Assembly (NCBI GenBank): GCA_021373015.1
Contig: JAJFTJ010000005.1
Location: 62,001-126,000, forward strand
Source of the DNA: Nitrospiraceae bacterium
Lineage (GTDB): Bacteria > Nitrospirota > Thermodesulfovibrionia > Thermodesulfovibrionales > UBA1546
Direction: 5' to 3'
DNA length: 64,000 bases
The notes beneath the pieces are model-generated. The model worked only from the letters and a program-made list of their open reading frames with translations, had not been told where the DNA came from and did no database searches. Positions 56,478 through 63,830 of this stretch are shown here, one piece after another; position 1 is the first letter of the stretch, and every line of letters begins with the position of its first letter. The position numbers and the translations under genes are program-made.

Positions 56478-56525
56478 AAGAACAATCTTTTGAAAATATT
56501 TCATAAAATGATCTGTTAGTTGATT

Positions 56526-56531
56526 TATAAT
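56526..56531 (+). promoter_or_regulatory. Consensus -10 element for def
   Basis: TATAAT at 56526-56531 is a perfect -10 hexamer whose end lies six bases before the def ATG. The predicted start point is the A of the ATG, indicating a leaderless message. No convincing -35 was found. Confidence 0.4.
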
Positions 56532-56537
56532 AAAAAC

Positions 56538-57047
56538 ATGGCACTGCTTGATATTAAGAAATATCCTGAGAATGTATTGAAGGCAAAAACTTTGCCTGTA
56601 ACTGATATTAATGTTGATATACAACATCTTGTTAATGATATGTTGGAGACAATGTATGATGCAGGCGGAATCGGACTCGCGGCTAATCAGGTCGGCATCC
56701 TTAAAAGGCTTTGTGTCATTGATTTAAGGGCTGCAAACGAGCAAACTCCGCTCATCGTCTTGATAAACCCTGAAATTATAGAAAAAACTGGGATAGCTGA
56801 GGCTGAAGAAGGATGCTTGAGTGTCCCTGATTACAGAGCAAAAGTGAGAAGGGCTGAACAGATATTTGTTAAAGGAATGGATATAACAGGCAGGCTTGTT
56901 GAGATAGAAGCAAAAGATCTTCTTGCCCGAGTTCTTCAGCATGAAATTGATCATCTTGACGGTTTCCTTTTTATTGACAGGCTGACGCCTATTAAAAAAG
57001 ATTTTTTCAAAAAGCAGCACAAAAAAAAGAGCGTTAAAAACAGATAA
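56538..57047 (+). CDS. def: Peptide deformylase
   Basis: Def removes the formyl group from nascent N-formylmethionine with a metal-bound water. The 169-residue enzyme has all three motifs: GIGLAANQVG (motif 1), EEGCLSVPDY (motif 2, metal-binding Cys) and QHEIDHLDG (motif 3, two His ligands and the catalytic Glu). The ATG at 56538 is chosen over a TTG at 56520; neither has a Shine-Dalgarno. It overlaps fmt by one base (TAATG); the two enzymes act at opposite ends of the formylation cycle. Confidence 0.96.
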   Translation: MALLDIKKYPENVLKAKTLPVTDINVDIQHLVNDMLETMYDAGGIGLAANQVGILKRLCVIDLRAANEQTPLIVLINPEIIEKTGIAEAEEGCLSVPDYRAKVRRAEQIFVKGMDITGRLVEIEAKDLLARVLQHEIDHLDGFLFIDRLTPIKKDFFKKQHKKKSVKNR

Positions 57048-57973
57048 TGCGCATAGTTTTTTTCGGCACTCCGTTATTTGCAGTTTCATCATTAAATAAA
57101 CTAATTGAAGCAGGAGAAGACGTAATTGCAGTAGTAACACAGGCAGACAAGAAAAAAGGCAGAGGGAAGATTCTCTCTGAATCTCCTATAAAAGAAACTG
57201 CTTTAAAAAAAGGTATTCGTGTTTTACAGCCATTGGGAATGAAAGATGAGAATTTTTTTGACAAACTTCAAATTTTAAAGCCAGAACTTATAGTAGTTGT
57301 TGCCTATGGAAAGATACTGCCAGAAAAAATTCTTAATCTGCCTTGCATGGGATGTGTCAATGTTCATGCCTCGATTCTTCCAAAATACCGCGGAGCAGCT
57401 CCAATTCAATGGACCATTATTAATGGTGAAAAAACAACTGGAGTTACTACAATGCTTATTGATAAAGGTTTGGACACAGGAGACATTCTGCTTCAAAAAG
57501 AACTTGCGATAACCCGTGATGATACAACAGAAAGTTTGAGCATTAAGCTGTCTGAGCTTGGAGCATCGCTTCTACTGGAAACCATAGATAAATTGAAAAA
57601 CGGTTCAATAAGACCATTAAAACAGCCAGATGAGGCAACTTATGCTCCTATTATAAAAAAAGAAGATGGTTTGATTATCTGGTCAAGAAAATCTGAGGAA
57701 TTGTATAATTTTATCCGCGGAATGCATCCTTGGCCTGGAGCATATTGCTATTTAAGAAATGAGAGAATTAAACTTATAAAAGTAGAATCAATTGAAGGCT
57801 CTGGAACTCCTGGAAGAATTGAGAAGATAGGTAAGAATAATTTAATTGTGGGAACAGGCAGCGGACTGATTTCAATAGTCGAACTTCAACCAGAAGGGAA
57901 GGGCATGATGCCAGCAGGGGCTTTTATTCAAGGCAGAGATATTAAAGAAGGAATGTATTTTGATGAAAAATAA
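57047..57973 (+). CDS. fmt: Methionyl-tRNA formyltransferase
   Basis: Fmt formylates initiator Met-tRNA using 10-formyltetrahydrofolate. The 308-residue protein has the N-terminal FFGTPLFAVSSLNKL Rossmann-type opening and the catalytic HASILPKYRGAAPIQWTII segment with Asn, His and later Asp (TMLIDKGLDTGDIL). The C-terminal tRNA-binding domain includes FIRGMHPWPGAY. It is translated with def and overlaps the DUF116 gene by 11 bases. Confidence 0.96.
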   Translation: MRIVFFGTPLFAVSSLNKLIEAGEDVIAVVTQADKKKGRGKILSESPIKETALKKGIRVLQPLGMKDENFFDKLQILKPELIVVVAYGKILPEKILNLPCMGCVNVHASILPKYRGAAPIQWTIINGEKTTGVTTMLIDKGLDTGDILLQKELAITRDDTTESLSIKLSELGASLLLETIDKLKNGSIRPLKQPDEATYAPIIKKEDGLIIWSRKSEELYNFIRGMHPWPGAYCYLRNERIKLIKVESIEGSGTPGRIEKIGKNNLIVGTGSGLISIVELQPEGKGMMPAGAFIQGRDIKEGMYFDEK

Positions 57974-58499
57974 ATTAACAAGAGGATTTGTACTCAGGAT
58001 TATGTATCCTCTTTTTATGATTGCAGGATCTTTTAAAAAAGATAAAAAAGAAGATATTCAGCGATTTATAATAAATCTTAATAACAAGCTTGTTAAATCA
58101 GAAGGCAAAAAAACCAAAAAGCTATTGCTGCTCCTTCCTCATTGCCTCCAGATAAATGATTGTGACATCAGGCTGACGCACAACATACACAACTGCAAAA
58201 AATGCGGGAGATGTGAGATAAAGGAACTTATACAGATAGCAGATAAATATAAGCTTGAACTTTTTATTGCTTCCGGCGGAAGACTCGCAAGAAGAATCGT
58301 AAAAGATATATCGCCTGAGGCAATAGTTGCGGTTGCATGTGAGGCAGACCTCAGCGAAGGAATTGTCGATATGTATCCCATGCCTGTGCTTGGGATCCCT
58401 AATGAACGGCCTTTCGGACCTTGTTTTAATACACAGGTAAACCTCGAAAGAGTCAAAGAGGCAATAAAATTTTTTGCACATAATTCAAATTCAGTTTGA
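57963..58499 (+). CDS. DUF116 family protein
   Basis: This 178-residue protein is of a family found mostly in anaerobes. Seven cysteines are present: 61, 67, 78, 81, 84, 126 and 154. Five cluster in the segment CLQINDCDIRLTHNIHNCKKCGRC, suggesting an iron-sulfur or zinc site. IVAVACEADLSEGI and LGIPNERPFGPCFNTQV are the most conserved stretches of the family. No function has been established. The ATG at 57963 follows a possible TTG at 57960. It overlaps fmt by 11 bases and the TusA-like gene by four. Confidence 0.9.
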   Translation: MKNKLTRGFVLRIMYPLFMIAGSFKKDKKEDIQRFIINLNNKLVKSEGKKTKKLLLLLPHCLQINDCDIRLTHNIHNCKKCGRCEIKELIQIADKYKLELFIASGGRLARRIVKDISPEAIVAVACEADLSEGIVDMYPMPVLGIPNERPFGPCFNTQVNLERVKEAIKFFAHNSNSV

Positions 58500-58753
58500 A
58501 TGGAGAAGATATCATTAAACAATTCAAATTTGATTTAAAACTTGACTGCAGCGGACTTTGGTCACCACTGCCTGTTATAAAGGTTAAGAAGACGCTCGAT
58601 CATATGAGCAAAGGTGAAATACTTAAGATAACAGCAACGGACACCAATGCAGAAAATGATATGCTTGGATATCTGAACAGTTCAGGCCATGAATTTATCG
58701 GCAAGGAAGAGGCTGAGGGAGAATATTTTTATTATATAAAAAAAGCTGTTTAA
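58496..58753 (+). CDS. TusA/SirA-like sulfur-carrier family protein lacking the catalytic Cys
   Basis: This 85-residue protein has the TusA fold: LDCSGLWSPLPVIKVKKTL, GEILKITATD and a C-terminal strand YFYYIKK. The family's CPxP motif reads Ser23-Pro-Leu-Pro, with Ser (TCA) in place of the Cys that carries the persulfide. Cys18 lies five residues earlier and is not at the catalytic position. It may be a structural or regulatory relative rather than a sulfurtransferase. The start is a TTG overlapping the DUF116 stop, so it is coupled to that gene. A short terminator follows. Confidence 0.85.
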   Translation: MNGEDIIKQFKFDLKLDCSGLWSPLPVIKVKKTLDHMSKGEILKITATDTNAENDMLGYLNSSGHEFIGKEEAEGEYFYYIKKAV

Positions 58754-58760
58754 CTTTTAT

Positions 58761-58778
58761 CGGCCTGCCGTTTTTTTT
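58761..58778 (+). terminator. Short hairpin and T-run after the def-fmt-DUF116-TusA-like operon
   Basis: CGGCCTGCCG at 58761-58770 forms a very short GC-rich hairpin followed directly by eight T (58771-58778). The stem is only three to four pairs, so it is a weak candidate, but position right after the operon supports it. Confidence 0.45.
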
Positions 58779-58834
58779 GTTGAAATAGTCTGTTCAAAAA
58801 CATTAGTATCAAGTGTTTTTTAATGGAAGACTAA

Positions 58835-59737
58835 ATGCATTATGTAAAACTCCAATATCCTGTTCATACAATTGAAGGCAAAATGCTGCTTCAATCAGGC
58901 ATTGAGCTTACAGAAAAAGTACTCAATGATCTTATCAGGTCTAATAACAGATCGAGCTGCAGACAATATACATTGTTTGAATATGGAAATCTTAAAAAAG
59001 ATTTAACAGAGTTTCTTGAACAGCCTCCATACAATTTGATTTTTTCTAATAAGGGGAGAATAGAAAGTTTTTTCAAAACAATGTCAGAAGTGAAAATTTT
59101 ATTGCCGCTTCTTCAAGCTTTTGACTATTTCAGGCACTACGACTTTTATACATACAGACATATTCTTATTGTATTCGCAATGACTTCTCTTATTGCGCAG
59201 GATATTATCCCAAAATATAAGTCTTTTGTTTCTAAAATTGTTTCAAGTACAAATCATGACATTGGAAAGATATGTCTGCCTCTTAACGTGCTTCAAAAAA
59301 CAAATCCATTGACAAGAACTGAGCGCGGGTTGTTAGAACACCATTCGGCGGCTGGATACGTATTGCTCAATTACTATTTGAAAGATGCTCATAGTTTTTA
59401 TGGGATGGTTGCAAGGGATCATCATGAGCGCAAAGACGGCTCTGGATATCCGAGAGGCATAAAACTAAGAGATGAAATAGTGGAGATCATAACTGTTTGT
59501 GACATATATGACGCGCTTGTATCTCCCAGACCATACAGACCAATATCTTATGATAATAGAACTGCTATCGAAGAGCTTACAGCTATGGCTGAAAGAAAAG
59601 AAATAGGATTAAAAGCTGTTAGAGTTTTGGTATCACATAATCGCAAGGATAGTCCAAGTTATAGTCAGGTTAACATCTCATTGGAAAAAAGAGGCACGCC
59701 TCCGCCAGGGAATCTATATGGAATAATCAAGGACTGA
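58835..59737 (+). CDS. HD-GYP domain protein (c-di-GMP phosphodiesterase candidate)
   Basis: This 300-residue protein has an N-terminal region of about 90 residues without a recognised domain, then an HD-GYP domain. The HD pair is His141-Asp142 and the second cluster reads DHHERKDGSGYP (195-206), so the GYP residues specific for c-di-GMP are intact. VCDIYDALVSPRPYR follows as expected. Such enzymes hydrolyse c-di-GMP to pGpG or GMP with a bi- or tri-metal site. It contrasts with the degenerate protein at 29734-30837. The stop converges with the zinc-ribbon gene nine bases away. Confidence 0.9.
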   Translation: MHYVKLQYPVHTIEGKMLLQSGIELTEKVLNDLIRSNNRSSCRQYTLFEYGNLKKDLTEFLEQPPYNLIFSNKGRIESFFKTMSEVKILLPLLQAFDYFRHYDFYTYRHILIVFAMTSLIAQDIIPKYKSFVSKIVSSTNHDIGKICLPLNVLQKTNPLTRTERGLLEHHSAAGYVLLNYYLKDAHSFYGMVARDHHERKDGSGYPRGIKLRDEIVEIITVCDIYDALVSPRPYRPISYDNRTAIEELTAMAERKEIGLKAVRVLVSHNRKDSPSYSQVNISLEKRGTPPPGNLYGIIKD

Positions 59738-59745
59738 AAAAGGCA

Positions 59746-59979
59746 TTAATCTTCTTTTTTTAGCTTCCTATAAAGATCTTCTCCAACACATTCCTTGGCA
59801 TGTTTACACCATTGAATGCATGACCCAATGTCATTGTATACGGTAAATCCACAGTTGCTGCATTGAACTTCTATATCAGTAGAAAAAACCTCGACCTCAC
59901 TGTTGCAGTCAGGGCATTTTTTTATTTTGATTGTAGGAGTTCTTAAATTGCCTGCTCCAGGACATTGTTCTTTTTTCAT
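59746..59979 (-). CDS. Small zinc-ribbon-like protein
   Basis: This 77-residue protein has a zinc-ribbon pattern: Cys22-x2-Cys25 and Cys39-x2-Cys42 spaced by 13 residues. A second Cys group follows (Cys53, Cys57, Cys63) in a GSCIQWCKHAKEC stretch that may hold another metal. The AAGGGGAGG site precedes its ATG. I do not recognise a named family; proteins with the IQWCKHA-type tail occur in anaerobes near redox or signalling genes. It converges with the HD-GYP gene. Confidence 0.75.
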   Translation of the reverse strand: MKKEQCPGAGNLRTPTIKIKKCPDCNSEVEVFSTDIEVQCSNCGFTVYNDIGSCIQWCKHAKECVGEDLYRKLKKED

Positions 59980-60057
59980 AGCCTCCCCTTTAAGACTACT
60001 TGCTTTAGTATGCGATTTTTAACTAAACACAAATATGATTTCAATCATAATTATTGA

Positions 60058-61878
60058 CTACATTTCAACTTTTGTAAGAACTCCGTGAAGTTTTTTTGCT
60101 GGAAATTCATAAAACTGTATGAAGGTAGAGGTGTTTCTCTTGATGAAATAAAATATTTTCCATATAATGTTTCTTGTGCTTATGTCTTCAACTCCATAAA
60201 AAACAGTGCGCTCTTCTATCCCTGCTTCCCTGAGAATCTCTTCAATATCTACTAATTCCATATATCCCATTTGTATTTCAAATACGCGCAGCCCCTTGCT
60301 AATATCTTCTTTAAAAAAACCTACTACTCCAAAAGGATCATCTCTTTTAATTATTGAGATGAAGATATTGTCCTCATACAGCACCCCGTGATAAAACATT
60401 GTCTGTGTAATATAAAAGGGGATTTCTTTTGTGTCTTTTATCAAAAAAAGCGCTGTTCCTCTTATTAATGTAGTTGTATCGTAAACTCTGTTAAATTTGT
60501 GCACGAATTCATCAATAGACATAAAATCCATCATCTTGTATAGCATTTTCTGCCCTTGTGTATAGAGGATTATCATTATAAAAGGGATTGCTGCAATTAT
60601 CAGTGACCAATAGCCTCCATGAGGTATCTTGTAAAAATTTGAAATCAAATACGATATATCAATACATGTTACAAAAAGGCTTATGAATGTTAAAAAAGGT
60701 TTTTTCTTAAGATAGAATATCCATGCCATAATGATACCTGTCAGAGTCATTGTTCCTGTAACTGCCAGCCCGTAAGCAGCAGCAAGTCTGCTCGATTCCT
60801 TGAACTCGAGCATTATAAAAAGCACTGAAACAAGAAGAAACCAGTTGATTGATGCAAGGTATATCTGTGATTTTCTCTCAACAGAGGTGTATTGAACCTT
60901 GAACATTGGCATTATTCTTGTCGTAATTCCCTGATAAACTATCGAGAACATTCCGCTTATCATTGCCTGCGATGCTATAACAGTTGCAATTATGCTCAGG
61001 AAAACAAAGGGTATATACAAAAGTTTTGCATGATACATTATCATTCCGAATAAAATTGTTTTTGCATCTGGGTTTGCTATAAGAAATGCCCCCTGCCCAA
61101 GATAGTTAAACACTAGTGCAATAAAAACTCCTCCCCATGCCTGTCTTATGGGTTTGCCGCCCAAGTGTCCCATGTCTGCGTACAATGCTTCTCCGCCTGT
61201 TGCACAGAGAATTATTTCTCCAAGAGCAATAAATCCAATAAAGCCATTATCAACTAAGAATTTTATTCCCCAATATGGATTCAATGCATTTACGATAACA
61301 GGTGTCTGAACAATAGAAAATAAACCGATCCCTGCTATAACTACGAACCATACAAGCATAATTGGTCCGAATGCACCTGCAACTTTTTCAGTGCCTTTTT
61401 TTTGAAAGGCAAAGAGCAAAATCGCTATTATTGCGGCAATCATTACTGTAACATTCTTGGAAATATTTTCTAATCCTGGGATTAGCAAAGAACCTTCAAC
61501 AGCGCTGAGTATGCTTATTGCTGGAGTGATTACTCCGTCGCCAATCAAGAGAGAAACCCCGATTATTGTGAGAAAAAATACAAAAATAGTCTTCCTTTTT
61601 GAGCTGAAAAGCGAGGATAGTATTTCTTTTAAGACTATAGTACCGCCTTCACCTCTTCTGCTAAGGCTCATTGCAAGCCATGCATACTGAACAGTGACAA
61701 GCGTTACAAGAGTCCATATTATTAAAGATGTGACTCCGAGGATGTTATTGACAGTATGCTGAAGCTCAAGGGATAAAAAAACTACTGTCATGGTGTATAT
61801 AGGGCTTGTGCCAATATCGCCAAACACAAGGCCAAGAGCCTTGATTATGCCTGTTGATGTTTTTTGTTTTTCTAGCAT
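60058..61878 (-). CDS. kup: KUP-type potassium transporter
   Basis: This 606-residue potassium-proton symporter has about 12 membrane segments in the first 440 residues and a cytoplasmic C-terminal domain. The Kup signature is clear from the start: ALGLVFGDIGTSPIYT, then GEGG and a GGEALYADMGHLGGKPIRQAW loop. The last 150 residues form the soluble domain of the family (KEIPFYITQTMFYHGVLYEDNIFISI). No Shine-Dalgarno is evident. No regulator gene is adjacent; the next minus-strand gene (UbiD-type) lies upstream at 71 bases. Confidence 0.95.
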   Translation of the reverse strand: MLEKQKTSTGIIKALGLVFGDIGTSPIYTMTVVFLSLELQHTVNNILGVTSLIIWTLVTLVTVQYAWLAMSLSRRGEGGTIVLKEILSSLFSSKRKTIFVFFLTIIGVSLLIGDGVITPAISILSAVEGSLLIPGLENISKNVTVMIAAIIAILLFAFQKKGTEKVAGAFGPIMLVWFVVIAGIGLFSIVQTPVIVNALNPYWGIKFLVDNGFIGFIALGEIILCATGGEALYADMGHLGGKPIRQAWGGVFIALVFNYLGQGAFLIANPDAKTILFGMIMYHAKLLYIPFVFLSIIATVIASQAMISGMFSIVYQGITTRIMPMFKVQYTSVERKSQIYLASINWFLLVSVLFIMLEFKESSRLAAAYGLAVTGTMTLTGIIMAWIFYLKKKPFLTFISLFVTCIDISYLISNFYKIPHGGYWSLIIAAIPFIMIILYTQGQKMLYKMMDFMSIDEFVHKFNRVYDTTTLIRGTALFLIKDTKEIPFYITQTMFYHGVLYEDNIFISIIKRDDPFGVVGFFKEDISKGLRVFEIQMGYMELVDIEEILREAGIEERTVFYGVEDISTRNIIWKIFYFIKRNTSTFIQFYEFPAKKLHGVLTKVEM

Positions 61879-61949
61879 ACAAATTTTATGATATCTTCAA
61901 AACGCTGTATTTTATACATTATGATGGTTAGGGTAAAGAGAAAAACTTG

Positions 61950-63413
61950 TCAGAACCCGTATTCTTTCCATTTTTTGTCAACCAATCTTTTTATGTCATC
62001 ACTCATGGAGATTTCTTCAGGCCAGTCGCGCATCATCCCTTCTTCGCGTGTTTTTCTTGTTGCATCAAGTCCCATCTTTGCCCCATATCTTGGCCAATTT
62101 GAAGCATGGTCAAGGGCGTCAAGCGGTCCGTCAGTTACTATTACATCACGCTTCCAGTCAACATTATTAAGCACTCTCCATGCTGTATAAGAAAGATTCT
62201 GCACATCCACATCATCATCAACAACTATAAGTAATTTTGAGAACATCATCTGTCCTTTTCCCCAGAGGCCGTTGATTATTTTTTTTGCATGTCCCGGATA
62301 GCTCTTTTTTATCGAAATAAGCGCGAAATTATGGAATACGCCTTCCATTGGAAGATTAATGTCTTTTATCTCAGGGAAGTCTAATCTTAAAAGAGGGAGA
62401 AAAATCCTCTCGGTTGCTTTTCCCATGTAGCAGTCTTCCATTGGAGGTTTTCCAACAAGTGTTGCAGGATATATCATGTCTTTTCTGTGAGTTATACATG
62501 TGACATGAAAAACAGGATAGGGCTCTGCAGGAGAATAAAAACCAGTATGGTCGCCGAATGGTCCTTCCATTCTTGTCTCGCCAGGTTCAAGATATCCTTC
62601 GATAACCATCTCAGAGTTTGCAGGCACTTCTATATCGCTTGTTATGCATTTAACCATTTCAACAGGTGCATTTCTCAAAAATCCTGCAAAAAGCATCTCA
62701 TCGATCGATTCAGGCAAAGGAGCGCTTGAAGAATATATAACAGCAGGGTCGCTTCCAACTGCTATTGCTGCAGGCATTCTCATGCCAAGTGTTTTGTATT
62801 TCTCATAATGCCGTGCTCCGTCTTTATGTATATGCCAGTGCATACCTGTTGTTGTTTTATCGTAAATATGTATTCTATACATTCCACAGTTCTGTCTTCC
62901 TGTTTCAGGGTCTTTTGTGAAAACCATAGGAAATGTTATAAATCTTCCTTCATCTTCGGGCCGGCCATCATGAGGCCAACATTTTATTATTGGAAATTTG
63001 GAAAGATTAGGATTGTTTTTTTCTATAATTTCATGGCATGGAGAGTTTTTTACATATTTAGGAAGATATTTGGAAAACTCAACCAGTTTTGGCAATAATG
63101 CAAGTTTTTCTGTCAAAGTTTTTGGCGGCGCCTGATTAAGTATTTTTTCAATACGTTTTCCAATATCATCAAGATTCTTAACTTCTAAAGAAAGACATAT
63201 CCTTTCAAATGAACCAAATAGATTTGTAGTTAAAGGAAAAGCTGAACCTTTTACTTTTTCAAAAAATAAAGCCTTTCCTCCATCTTTACTTTTTGACATT
63301 CTGTCAGTAATCTCAGCTATCTCGAGTATTGGGTCGACTTCAGTTCTTATCCTATGAAGCAGTTGTTTTTGCTCTAATATTTTAATAAATTCTCTTAGGT
63401 CTTTGTATGCCAT
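61950..63413 (-). CDS. ubiD: UbiD-family decarboxylase
   Basis: This 487-residue prenylated-FMN-dependent decarboxylase contains the family's FITFPMVFTKDPETGRQNCGMYRIHIYDKTTTGMHWH region. It also has the GARHYEKYK loop and the catalytic Glu-Arg-Glu zone around IVIEGYLEPGETRMEGPFGDHTGFY (Glu, Arg, Glu visible). The C-terminal VPPVVDDDVDVQN-like strand is seen as VVDDDVDVQNLSY. The ATG at 63413 (MAYKDLREF) has GAGAGG upstream; a longer upstream frame has no such site. It probably decarboxylates a menaquinone precursor, matching mqnA, although UbiD proteins also act on other aromatic acids. Confidence 0.9.
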   Translation of the reverse strand: MAYKDLREFIKILEQKQLLHRIRTEVDPILEIAEITDRMSKSKDGGKALFFEKVKGSAFPLTTNLFGSFERICLSLEVKNLDDIGKRIEKILNQAPPKTLTEKLALLPKLVEFSKYLPKYVKNSPCHEIIEKNNPNLSKFPIIKCWPHDGRPEDEGRFITFPMVFTKDPETGRQNCGMYRIHIYDKTTTGMHWHIHKDGARHYEKYKTLGMRMPAAIAVGSDPAVIYSSSAPLPESIDEMLFAGFLRNAPVEMVKCITSDIEVPANSEMVIEGYLEPGETRMEGPFGDHTGFYSPAEPYPVFHVTCITHRKDMIYPATLVGKPPMEDCYMGKATERIFLPLLRLDFPEIKDINLPMEGVFHNFALISIKKSYPGHAKKIINGLWGKGQMMFSKLLIVVDDDVDVQNLSYTAWRVLNNVDWKRDVIVTDGPLDALDHASNWPRYGAKMGLDATRKTREEGMMRDWPEEISMSDDIKRLVDKKWKEYGF

Positions 63414-63554
63414 AAAACCTCTCAAGTATAATACCACATAGTATAAATCAGTCATGACAAGAAAATTAAACTAATTTCTTCTTGACAATGCCCTATCTGC
63501 TTAATATAATTAAGAAAAACATCATTTCAAGGCGTAGCTTTTTTGGGGGTATGT

Positions 63555-63830
63555 ATGACAAAGGCTGATCTTGCAGATGCAATCTTTCAGAAAGTAGGTC
63601 TCTCCAAAAAAGAAGCACAGGATATAATAGAGATTATTTTTGATTCTCTGAAACAAACATTCAAAGAAGGCGAGTCTGTAAAGATCTCTGGTTTCGGCAC
63701 TTTCATAGTAAGAAAAAAGGCTTCAAGAAGAGGAAGGAATCCCAAGACAGGCGAGGATATAGAAATAACTCCGCGAAAGGTTATTACTTTCAGGATCAGC
63801 AATAAGCTTAAATTAATTATCGAACAGTAA
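63555..63830 (+). CDS. ihfA: Integration host factor alpha subunit
   Basis: This 91-residue HU/IHF-family protein bends DNA and shapes sigma-54 and recombination complexes. The IHF-alpha opening [25 protein letters not shown], the [27 protein letters not shown] arm with the Pro-containing loop that intercalates DNA, and the RKVITFR end are present. The start at 63555 is set by a GGGGG site five bases upstream; a frame from 63543 is rejected. The MerR-type gene follows two bases later, a common pairing. Confidence 0.93.

Follow-up and report, generated by a model that had tools for sequence, protein, structure and literature searches.

Proteins of the TusA family pass sulfur on by way of a persulfide carried on the cysteine of their CPxP motif. 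A sulfur relay made up of TusA, DsrEFH and DsrC has been described in cable bacteria and sulfate reducers, and that work names Nitrospirota among the holders of type II DsrEFH, with tusA in synteny (PMC13293266). The relay illustrates the role of TusA in such organisms; the TusA-like protein described below differs from it in lacking the cysteine expected to bear the persulfide. The siroheme amidase DsrN is a CbiA/CobB-type protein (PMC10504309). DUF116 (PF01976, COG1852, arCOG02078), the product of the gene upstream of our TusA gene, has been linked to sulfite or nitrite reductase in Methanomicrobia; the available part of that source text makes no mention of TusA, whereas the neighbour of DUF116 across the order studied here is fmt. 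Our literature search found no paper treating DUF116 together with TusA and no description of SirA-like proteins without the conserved cysteine.

The window, that is, the whole stretch of DNA analysed, comprises 64,000 nucleotides of a 371-kb contig of a Nitrospiraceae bacterium (Thermodesulfovibrionales), the 1.69-Mb genome of which (G000) is 100% complete with 0 contamination. The features discussed are collected in Table 1. The first-pass annotation of the window had pointed out a TusA-like protein with SPLP, encoded with TCA, in place of the CPxP motif, an otherwise preserved TusA fold and a DUF116 gene behind def and fmt, and all of this was confirmed. The Pfam TusA profile (PF01206) matches the open reading frame from position 2 to 70 of 70 (E 6.7e-18, 64.8 bits, cut-off 28.6), and the closest PDB structure to its AlphaFold2 model (mean pLDDT 84.9) is E. 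coli TusA (3lvj_C, TM 0.80; see also 1dcj). The score against the NCBIfam TusA equivalog NF001423, 52 bits, lies below the cut-off of 78. In the motif, LDCSGLWSPLP, Ser23 occupies the place of the catalytic cysteine of the TusA family, a column that holds Cys in 27/27 other TusA as read by eye from printed alignment A1 (28 of 32 TusA sequences, window included, without the near copies L013, L026, L027 and L031). Judged by its sequence, the window protein cannot bear a persulfide at the CPxP position. The residues around Ser23 likewise differ from those of the relatives. The protein resembles TusA in its full-length profile match and fold and shares 12 of the 13 most conserved sites with the TusA of the order, but departs from them in its serine, its fast evolution and its want of an ATG start and of a promoter-like sequence of its own. 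A different departure from the motif was seen in a TusA of genome G052 (L033, 1501-1725), in which CPLT keeps the cysteine and has Thr for the second Pro.

Table 1. Features of the window around the Ser-type TusA gene, and loci of other genomes in which dsrA lies beside DUF116.
Feature	Position or locus	Strand	Basis
def and fmt, conserved upstream neighbours of DUF116	56520..57973	+	Pfam, neighbour survey
DUF116 gene, intact, with all seven alignment-invariant Cys kept	57960..58499	+	Pfam, alignment A2
ORF of 85 aa with TusA fold and Ser for the catalytic Cys (SPLP)	58496..58753	+	ORF list, Pfam, alignment A1, AlphaFold2 model
GGAG Shine-Dalgarno-like sequence and ATT where relatives have the ATG start	58502..58516	+	sequence; tblastn
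Codon TGC (Cys18), retained, upstream of Ser23	58547..58549	+	sequence; shared with the six same-locus orthologues
Codon TCA for Ser23, where TusA has its catalytic Cys	58562..58564	+	sequence; alignment A1
Site of the missing dsrA-dsrB-dsrD...CbiA/DsrN-like block, now holding an HD_5 gene	58754..59745	.	Pfam, ORFs, tblastn, collinearity
Right flank (Zn-ribbon, kup, ubiD, ihf), collinear with G004	59746..63830	.	tblastn
Loci with dsrA beside DUF116	L005, L007, L012-L014, L067, L069, L071, L072, L075, L158, L168		

Searches for further Ser-type TusA in the phylum were made with nucleotide patterns. The TCN form, D..G(L/F).S(TCN)P.P, listed 70 matches, from 59 of the 395 genomes; none of the 69 outside the window is a TusA (best E 0.27 against a profile built from 32 TusA, window included). 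The AGY form matched eight times in 8 of the 149 genomes of the order, again without a TusA (best E 0.15). With Cys in place of Ser, the pattern matches in at least 135 of the 395 genomes, these matches not being checked one by one, and recovers 22 of 31 known Cys-type TusA; about three in ten would therefore be missed, as would genes with Ala or other replacements. Because of this recovery rate rare Ser-type genes may have escaped, and what the TCN and AGY searches rule out, at a sensitivity of 22/31, is a widespread Ser-type TusA. A search of the genome contigs database with the window TusA returned no relative. The survey of DUF116 neighbourhoods proposed in the first-pass annotation likewise turned up no Ser-type TusA besides that of the window, the six others being Cys-type. 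As far as sequence comparison can tell, the Cys-to-Ser change is specific to the window's lineage.

The same locus is present in six genomes of the family (G002, G003, G004, G005, G007 and G011), where it reads fmt-DUF116-TusA-DsrA and where the TusA motif is (D/N)CKGLNCPMP, its cysteine intact. DsrA scores above the cut-off of TIGR02064 in each of the six. In all of them except G011, dsrA is followed by ORFs for DsrB, named by match, and a DsrD-like protein; the latter has no Pfam match and is presumably DsrD. A CbiA/CobB-type gene lies further downstream in G004. The TusA proteins of these loci are among the best sequence matches of the window protein (identity 43-47%), and the window gene occupies the same place behind fmt and DUF116; the relatives, however, have CPMP, dsrA downstream and, in 5 of 5 examined, a promoter-like sequence, all of which the window gene lacks. 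With or without tusA, DUF116 adjoins dsrA in 12 of the 13 other genomes of the family that possess both, an adjacency reminiscent of the link between DUF116 and sulfite or nitrite reductase reported in Methanomicrobia. The exception is G009, in which def-fmt-DUF116 and tusA-dsrA-dsrB-dsrD stand in two separate places. Since its DUF116 has neither tusA nor dsrA beside it and tusA-dsrA-dsrB is found elsewhere, tusA travels with dsrA and not with DUF116. The four-gene run of G009 (L040, 4158-7220) lies among other genes, away from DUF116, and can thus move as a unit.

The DUF116 gene of the window shows no sign of damage. Its product matches the Pfam family with E 8.4e-53, and seven cysteines are invariant in 21/21 sequences of alignment A2, which consists of the window and 20 of the 29 other DUF116 loci (L052 and L073, with a stop within the chosen coordinates, were left out along with others). 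Its dN/dS against G005 is about 0.06, at a dS (3.03) that is near saturation. The best match among PDB sequences has E 0.55, a fold search with the DUF116 model (mean pLDDT 76.3) gave no match at E 0.001, and the genome contigs database contained one relative only. The neighbours of DUF116 were surveyed at one locus for each of the 56 genomes in which DUF116 matched, leaving aside second matches in G019, G030, G049 and G059, and the profile used to find TusA did not include the window sequence. fmt lies upstream of DUF116 in 55 of the 56, the exception (G049) having only a divergent DUF116, and def was seen nearby in 49, a count that may be too low, as the 2.4 to 3.5 kb read at a locus do not always reach as far as def. 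The order fmt-DUF116, with DUF116 a predicted metal-binding protein, is thus nearly constant in these bacteria (loci L046, L049-L077 and L157-L176). TusA stands beside DUF116 in seven genomes, all from the window's family and spread over five genera, and dsrA follows in six of the seven, the window being the seventh. In the genus-g2 genomes G001, G006, G008, G010, G012 and G013, dsrA follows DUF116 and no TusA was found between them. A DUF116-TusA system recurring independently of other genes is not what these seven occurrences show, being confined to one family and tied to dsrA. The idea that the two genes form an unrecognised unit, put forward in the first-pass annotation, has consequently been abandoned, since dsrA is next to TusA in all six cases outside the window.

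Comparison with G004 locates what the window has lost. There the order is rpoN-hpf-rapZ-def-fmt-DUF116-TusA, then dsrA, dsrB, dsrD, a YkgJ-like gene, a GDSL gene and the CbiA-type gene, and then Zn-ribbon-kup-ubiD-ihf-merR; several names of flank genes, among them kup, ubiD and ihf, were assigned from sequence and are presumably right. Both flanks are collinear with the window in tblastn, and the block from dsrA to the CbiA-type gene is replaced in the window by a single HD_5 gene; none of the proteins of that block has a tblastn match in the window at E 1e-3. The HD_5 gene (58835-59737) has no match in the stretches of the six relatives compared. In G000 as a whole, no match was obtained for the sulfite reductase domain NIR_SIR (11 of 14 controls positive), for ATP sulfurylase (5 of 14 controls positive) or for AprA, a search in which no control genome rose above the cut-off; the AprA and ATP sulfurylase searches covered G000 and the controls. 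With no NIR_SIR match in its genome, the window TusA has no adjacent dsrAB of the kind that marks a TusA of a Dsr operon, and given the three negative searches G000 would be without sulfate reduction by the Dsr route. Of the 16 genomes of the family, 13 have DsrA above the cut-off; the others are G000 and two with completeness of 74% and 66%. When the comparison is confined to genomes with completeness of 90% or more and contamination of 5% or less, a DsrA match is present in 55 of 56, the exception being G000. A simple reading is complicated by weak matches (best 69 and 27 bits) in G031 and G054, which may lack a true DsrA, and by pieces below the cut-off in G035 and G036. Since G031 has a match to the Cys-type TusA pattern, absence of DsrAB need not be accompanied by loss of the cysteine. 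No second genome of the window's genus is present among the 60 relatives.

G000 encodes two other TusA proteins, both Cys-type, one beside DsrH- and DsrE-like genes and the other beside Sulf_transp and a class-V aminotransferase. The former belongs to a retained DsrH-DsrE-DsrE/F-TusA(CPYP) cluster (L045, 3021-4414, contig C12), and a DsrC with two cysteines near its C-terminus is kept as well (L148, 1489-1824, contig C8), so that DsrE/F/H-TusA and DsrC would form a sulfur relay lacking the customary terminal enzyme; DsrAB, AprA and ATP sulfurylase were not found. In the latter, the aminotransferase, a TusA with CPQP and Sulf_transp are adjacent (L044, 9422-11903, contig C5), possibly as a unit for selenium or thiosulfate trafficking.

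In G002, G003, G004, G005 and G007, 61-168 nt separate DUF116 from tusA, and this gap contains TTGACA-(17 or 18 nt)-TATAGT/TATATT, then GGAGG and then the tusA ATG. The tusA of G009, which is not behind DUF116, has the GGAGG, and the promoter-like match is absent. In the window there is no gap: the open reading frame begins with TTG and overlaps the stop codon of DUF116 (TTGA), and promoter-like matches in the region are about as frequent as chance would give (4, against an expected 3.6). Residues 1-79 of the G005 TusA align with 58514-58750 in tblastn, which places an ATT, with GGAG eight bases ahead of it, at the position of the relatives' ATG. From the sequence, translation could start at the TTG at 58496, coupled to DUF116, or weakly at an ATC or ATT after GGAG.

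Rates were compared with five same-locus relatives (four for def) and up to three genomes of genus g2. Identities between the window and the same-locus relatives are 0.42-0.47 for TusA, as opposed to 0.69-0.74 for DUF116, 0.64-0.70 for fmt (n=5) and 0.62-0.67 for def (n=4); among the relatives themselves they are 0.78-0.97, 0.80-0.99, 0.69-0.89 and 0.74-0.94, respectively. The terminal branch of the window measures 1.07 for TusA, 0.35 for DUF116, 0.33 for fmt and 0.40 for def. For all four genes no other branch is longer, while the fmt identities are hardly below those among relatives; resolution of the TusA tree is poor, with the window joined to G001 at support 0.78. For TusA, dN/dS between the window and five relatives is 0.13-0.33 (with G005, a sixth, dS is infinite); three pairs of relatives give 0.03-0.09, and dS is saturated or nearly so in both sets. 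Differences by codon position are 0.38/0.30/0.62 between the window and G005 and 0.09/0.03/0.47 between G002 and G005. Thirteen sites are at least 95% conserved in 25 TusA of the order (the paralogues L001 and L002 of G000 having been left out besides the sequences omitted from A1), and among these the window has changed Cys23 alone. It kept 9 of 22 sites conserved at 80-95%, 7 of 15 at 60-80% and 5 of 25 less conserved ones, that is, 12/13 of the most conserved sites as against 21/62 of the others, 41 of which have changed (Fisher p 1.2e-4). Fast evolution alone is not unusual, since the Cys-type TusA L022 and L025 have kept about as few of the 80-95% sites (10/20 and 7/19).

Our preferred explanation, to which we assign a probability of about 0.8, is that the window tusA is a relic of a Dsr operon that has lost the carrier function of CPxP. 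It would be the leftover first gene of a tusA-dsrABD unit for dissimilatory sulfite reduction, the dsr block having been deleted between the collinear flanks, the promoter-like region of tusA having disappeared and its ATG having become ATT. With the Dsr partners gone, persulfide transfer by this TusA would no longer have been selected and the cysteine could be lost, while the two Cys-type TusA of G000 could supply the carrier role. Any protein made would probably come from low-level readout of the def-fmt-DUF116 transcript, through the TTGA overlap or an ATC or ATT after GGAG. Within the account of a Dsr relic, a retained, folded and non-catalytic protein has about an even chance, and a decaying gene somewhat less than that.

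Decay proper, in which the gene has no selected function and the open frame reflects a short time, is a possibility we would bet against without discarding it. The loss of promoter region, ATG and catalytic cysteine would all fit it, as would the strong acceleration, with just 9/22 of the 80-95% sites kept. It is opposed by the lack of a stop in the 79 aligned codons, a result with probability 0.09-0.12 if all divergence were neutral (0.32-0.33 if it were neutral only to 70% identity, and 0.45-0.49 to 80%), by the uneven change of the codon positions and by the 12/13 most conserved sites kept; that none of the 12 sites other than the cysteine changed has a probability of 0.003 or 0.03 with 39% or 25% of sites neutrally changed, both percentages being our own estimates from the identities. 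This pattern, as read from the alignments, is evidence against a gene decaying over the entire branch, whereas decay of recent date would be compatible with it. Because so structured a pattern argues that the fold was under selection for much of the branch, we consider retention as a non-catalytic binding protein slightly more likely than plain decay. In its fuller form the retention idea is tentative and rather unlikely: after loss of Dsr, TusA would have become a non-catalytic binding protein with its core under selection, brought into the def-fmt-DUF116 transcript by the deletion, and may serve as a decoy or adaptor for DsrE-type proteins or DUF116. A specific complex of DUF116 with the Ser-type TusA as binding module, restricted to this lineage, is improbable. 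The two genes now overlap, both outlasted the dsr block, the fold is conserved, DUF116 has its seven invariant cysteines and the genes adjoin in seven genomes of five genera, but TusA is beside DUF116 in just 7/56 genomes; in each of these save the window dsrA comes next, and in six genus-g2 genomes dsrA adjoins DUF116, no TusA having been detected in the interval.

Nor is Cys18, five residues upstream of Ser23, at all likely to have taken over the persulfide and kept the protein a sulfur carrier. This cysteine is shared with all six same-locus orthologues, and Cys is found at its position in other TusA of the order and in many pattern matches across the phylum; however, the orthologues have it alongside the catalytic cysteine and in many TusA the residue is T, A, V or L, so the position is a variable site. 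That close relatives would have Cys had been named in advance as a mark of sequence error or recent mutation. The CPMP of the six same-locus relatives does argue against an old Ser-type family, but an error in sequencing or assembly is hardly credible. Although Ser23 is seen in a single genome, TCA is two base changes away from any Cys codon (TGT/TGC), the neighbouring residues differ too, the 12/13 most conserved sites are intact, and the contig and genome are of the size and completeness given above.

If the window tusA is indeed a relic of the Dsr operon, it represents a sulfur carrier in which Cys has naturally given way to Ser and for which the cause, loss of the pathway served, can be read from synteny; that DUF116 and TusA are immediate neighbours in this genome would then be the scar of a deletion. 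Annotation as TusA need not mean a persulfide carrier, and if the protein is still made, it may allow the role of the TusA fold to be tested in the absence of its chemistry.
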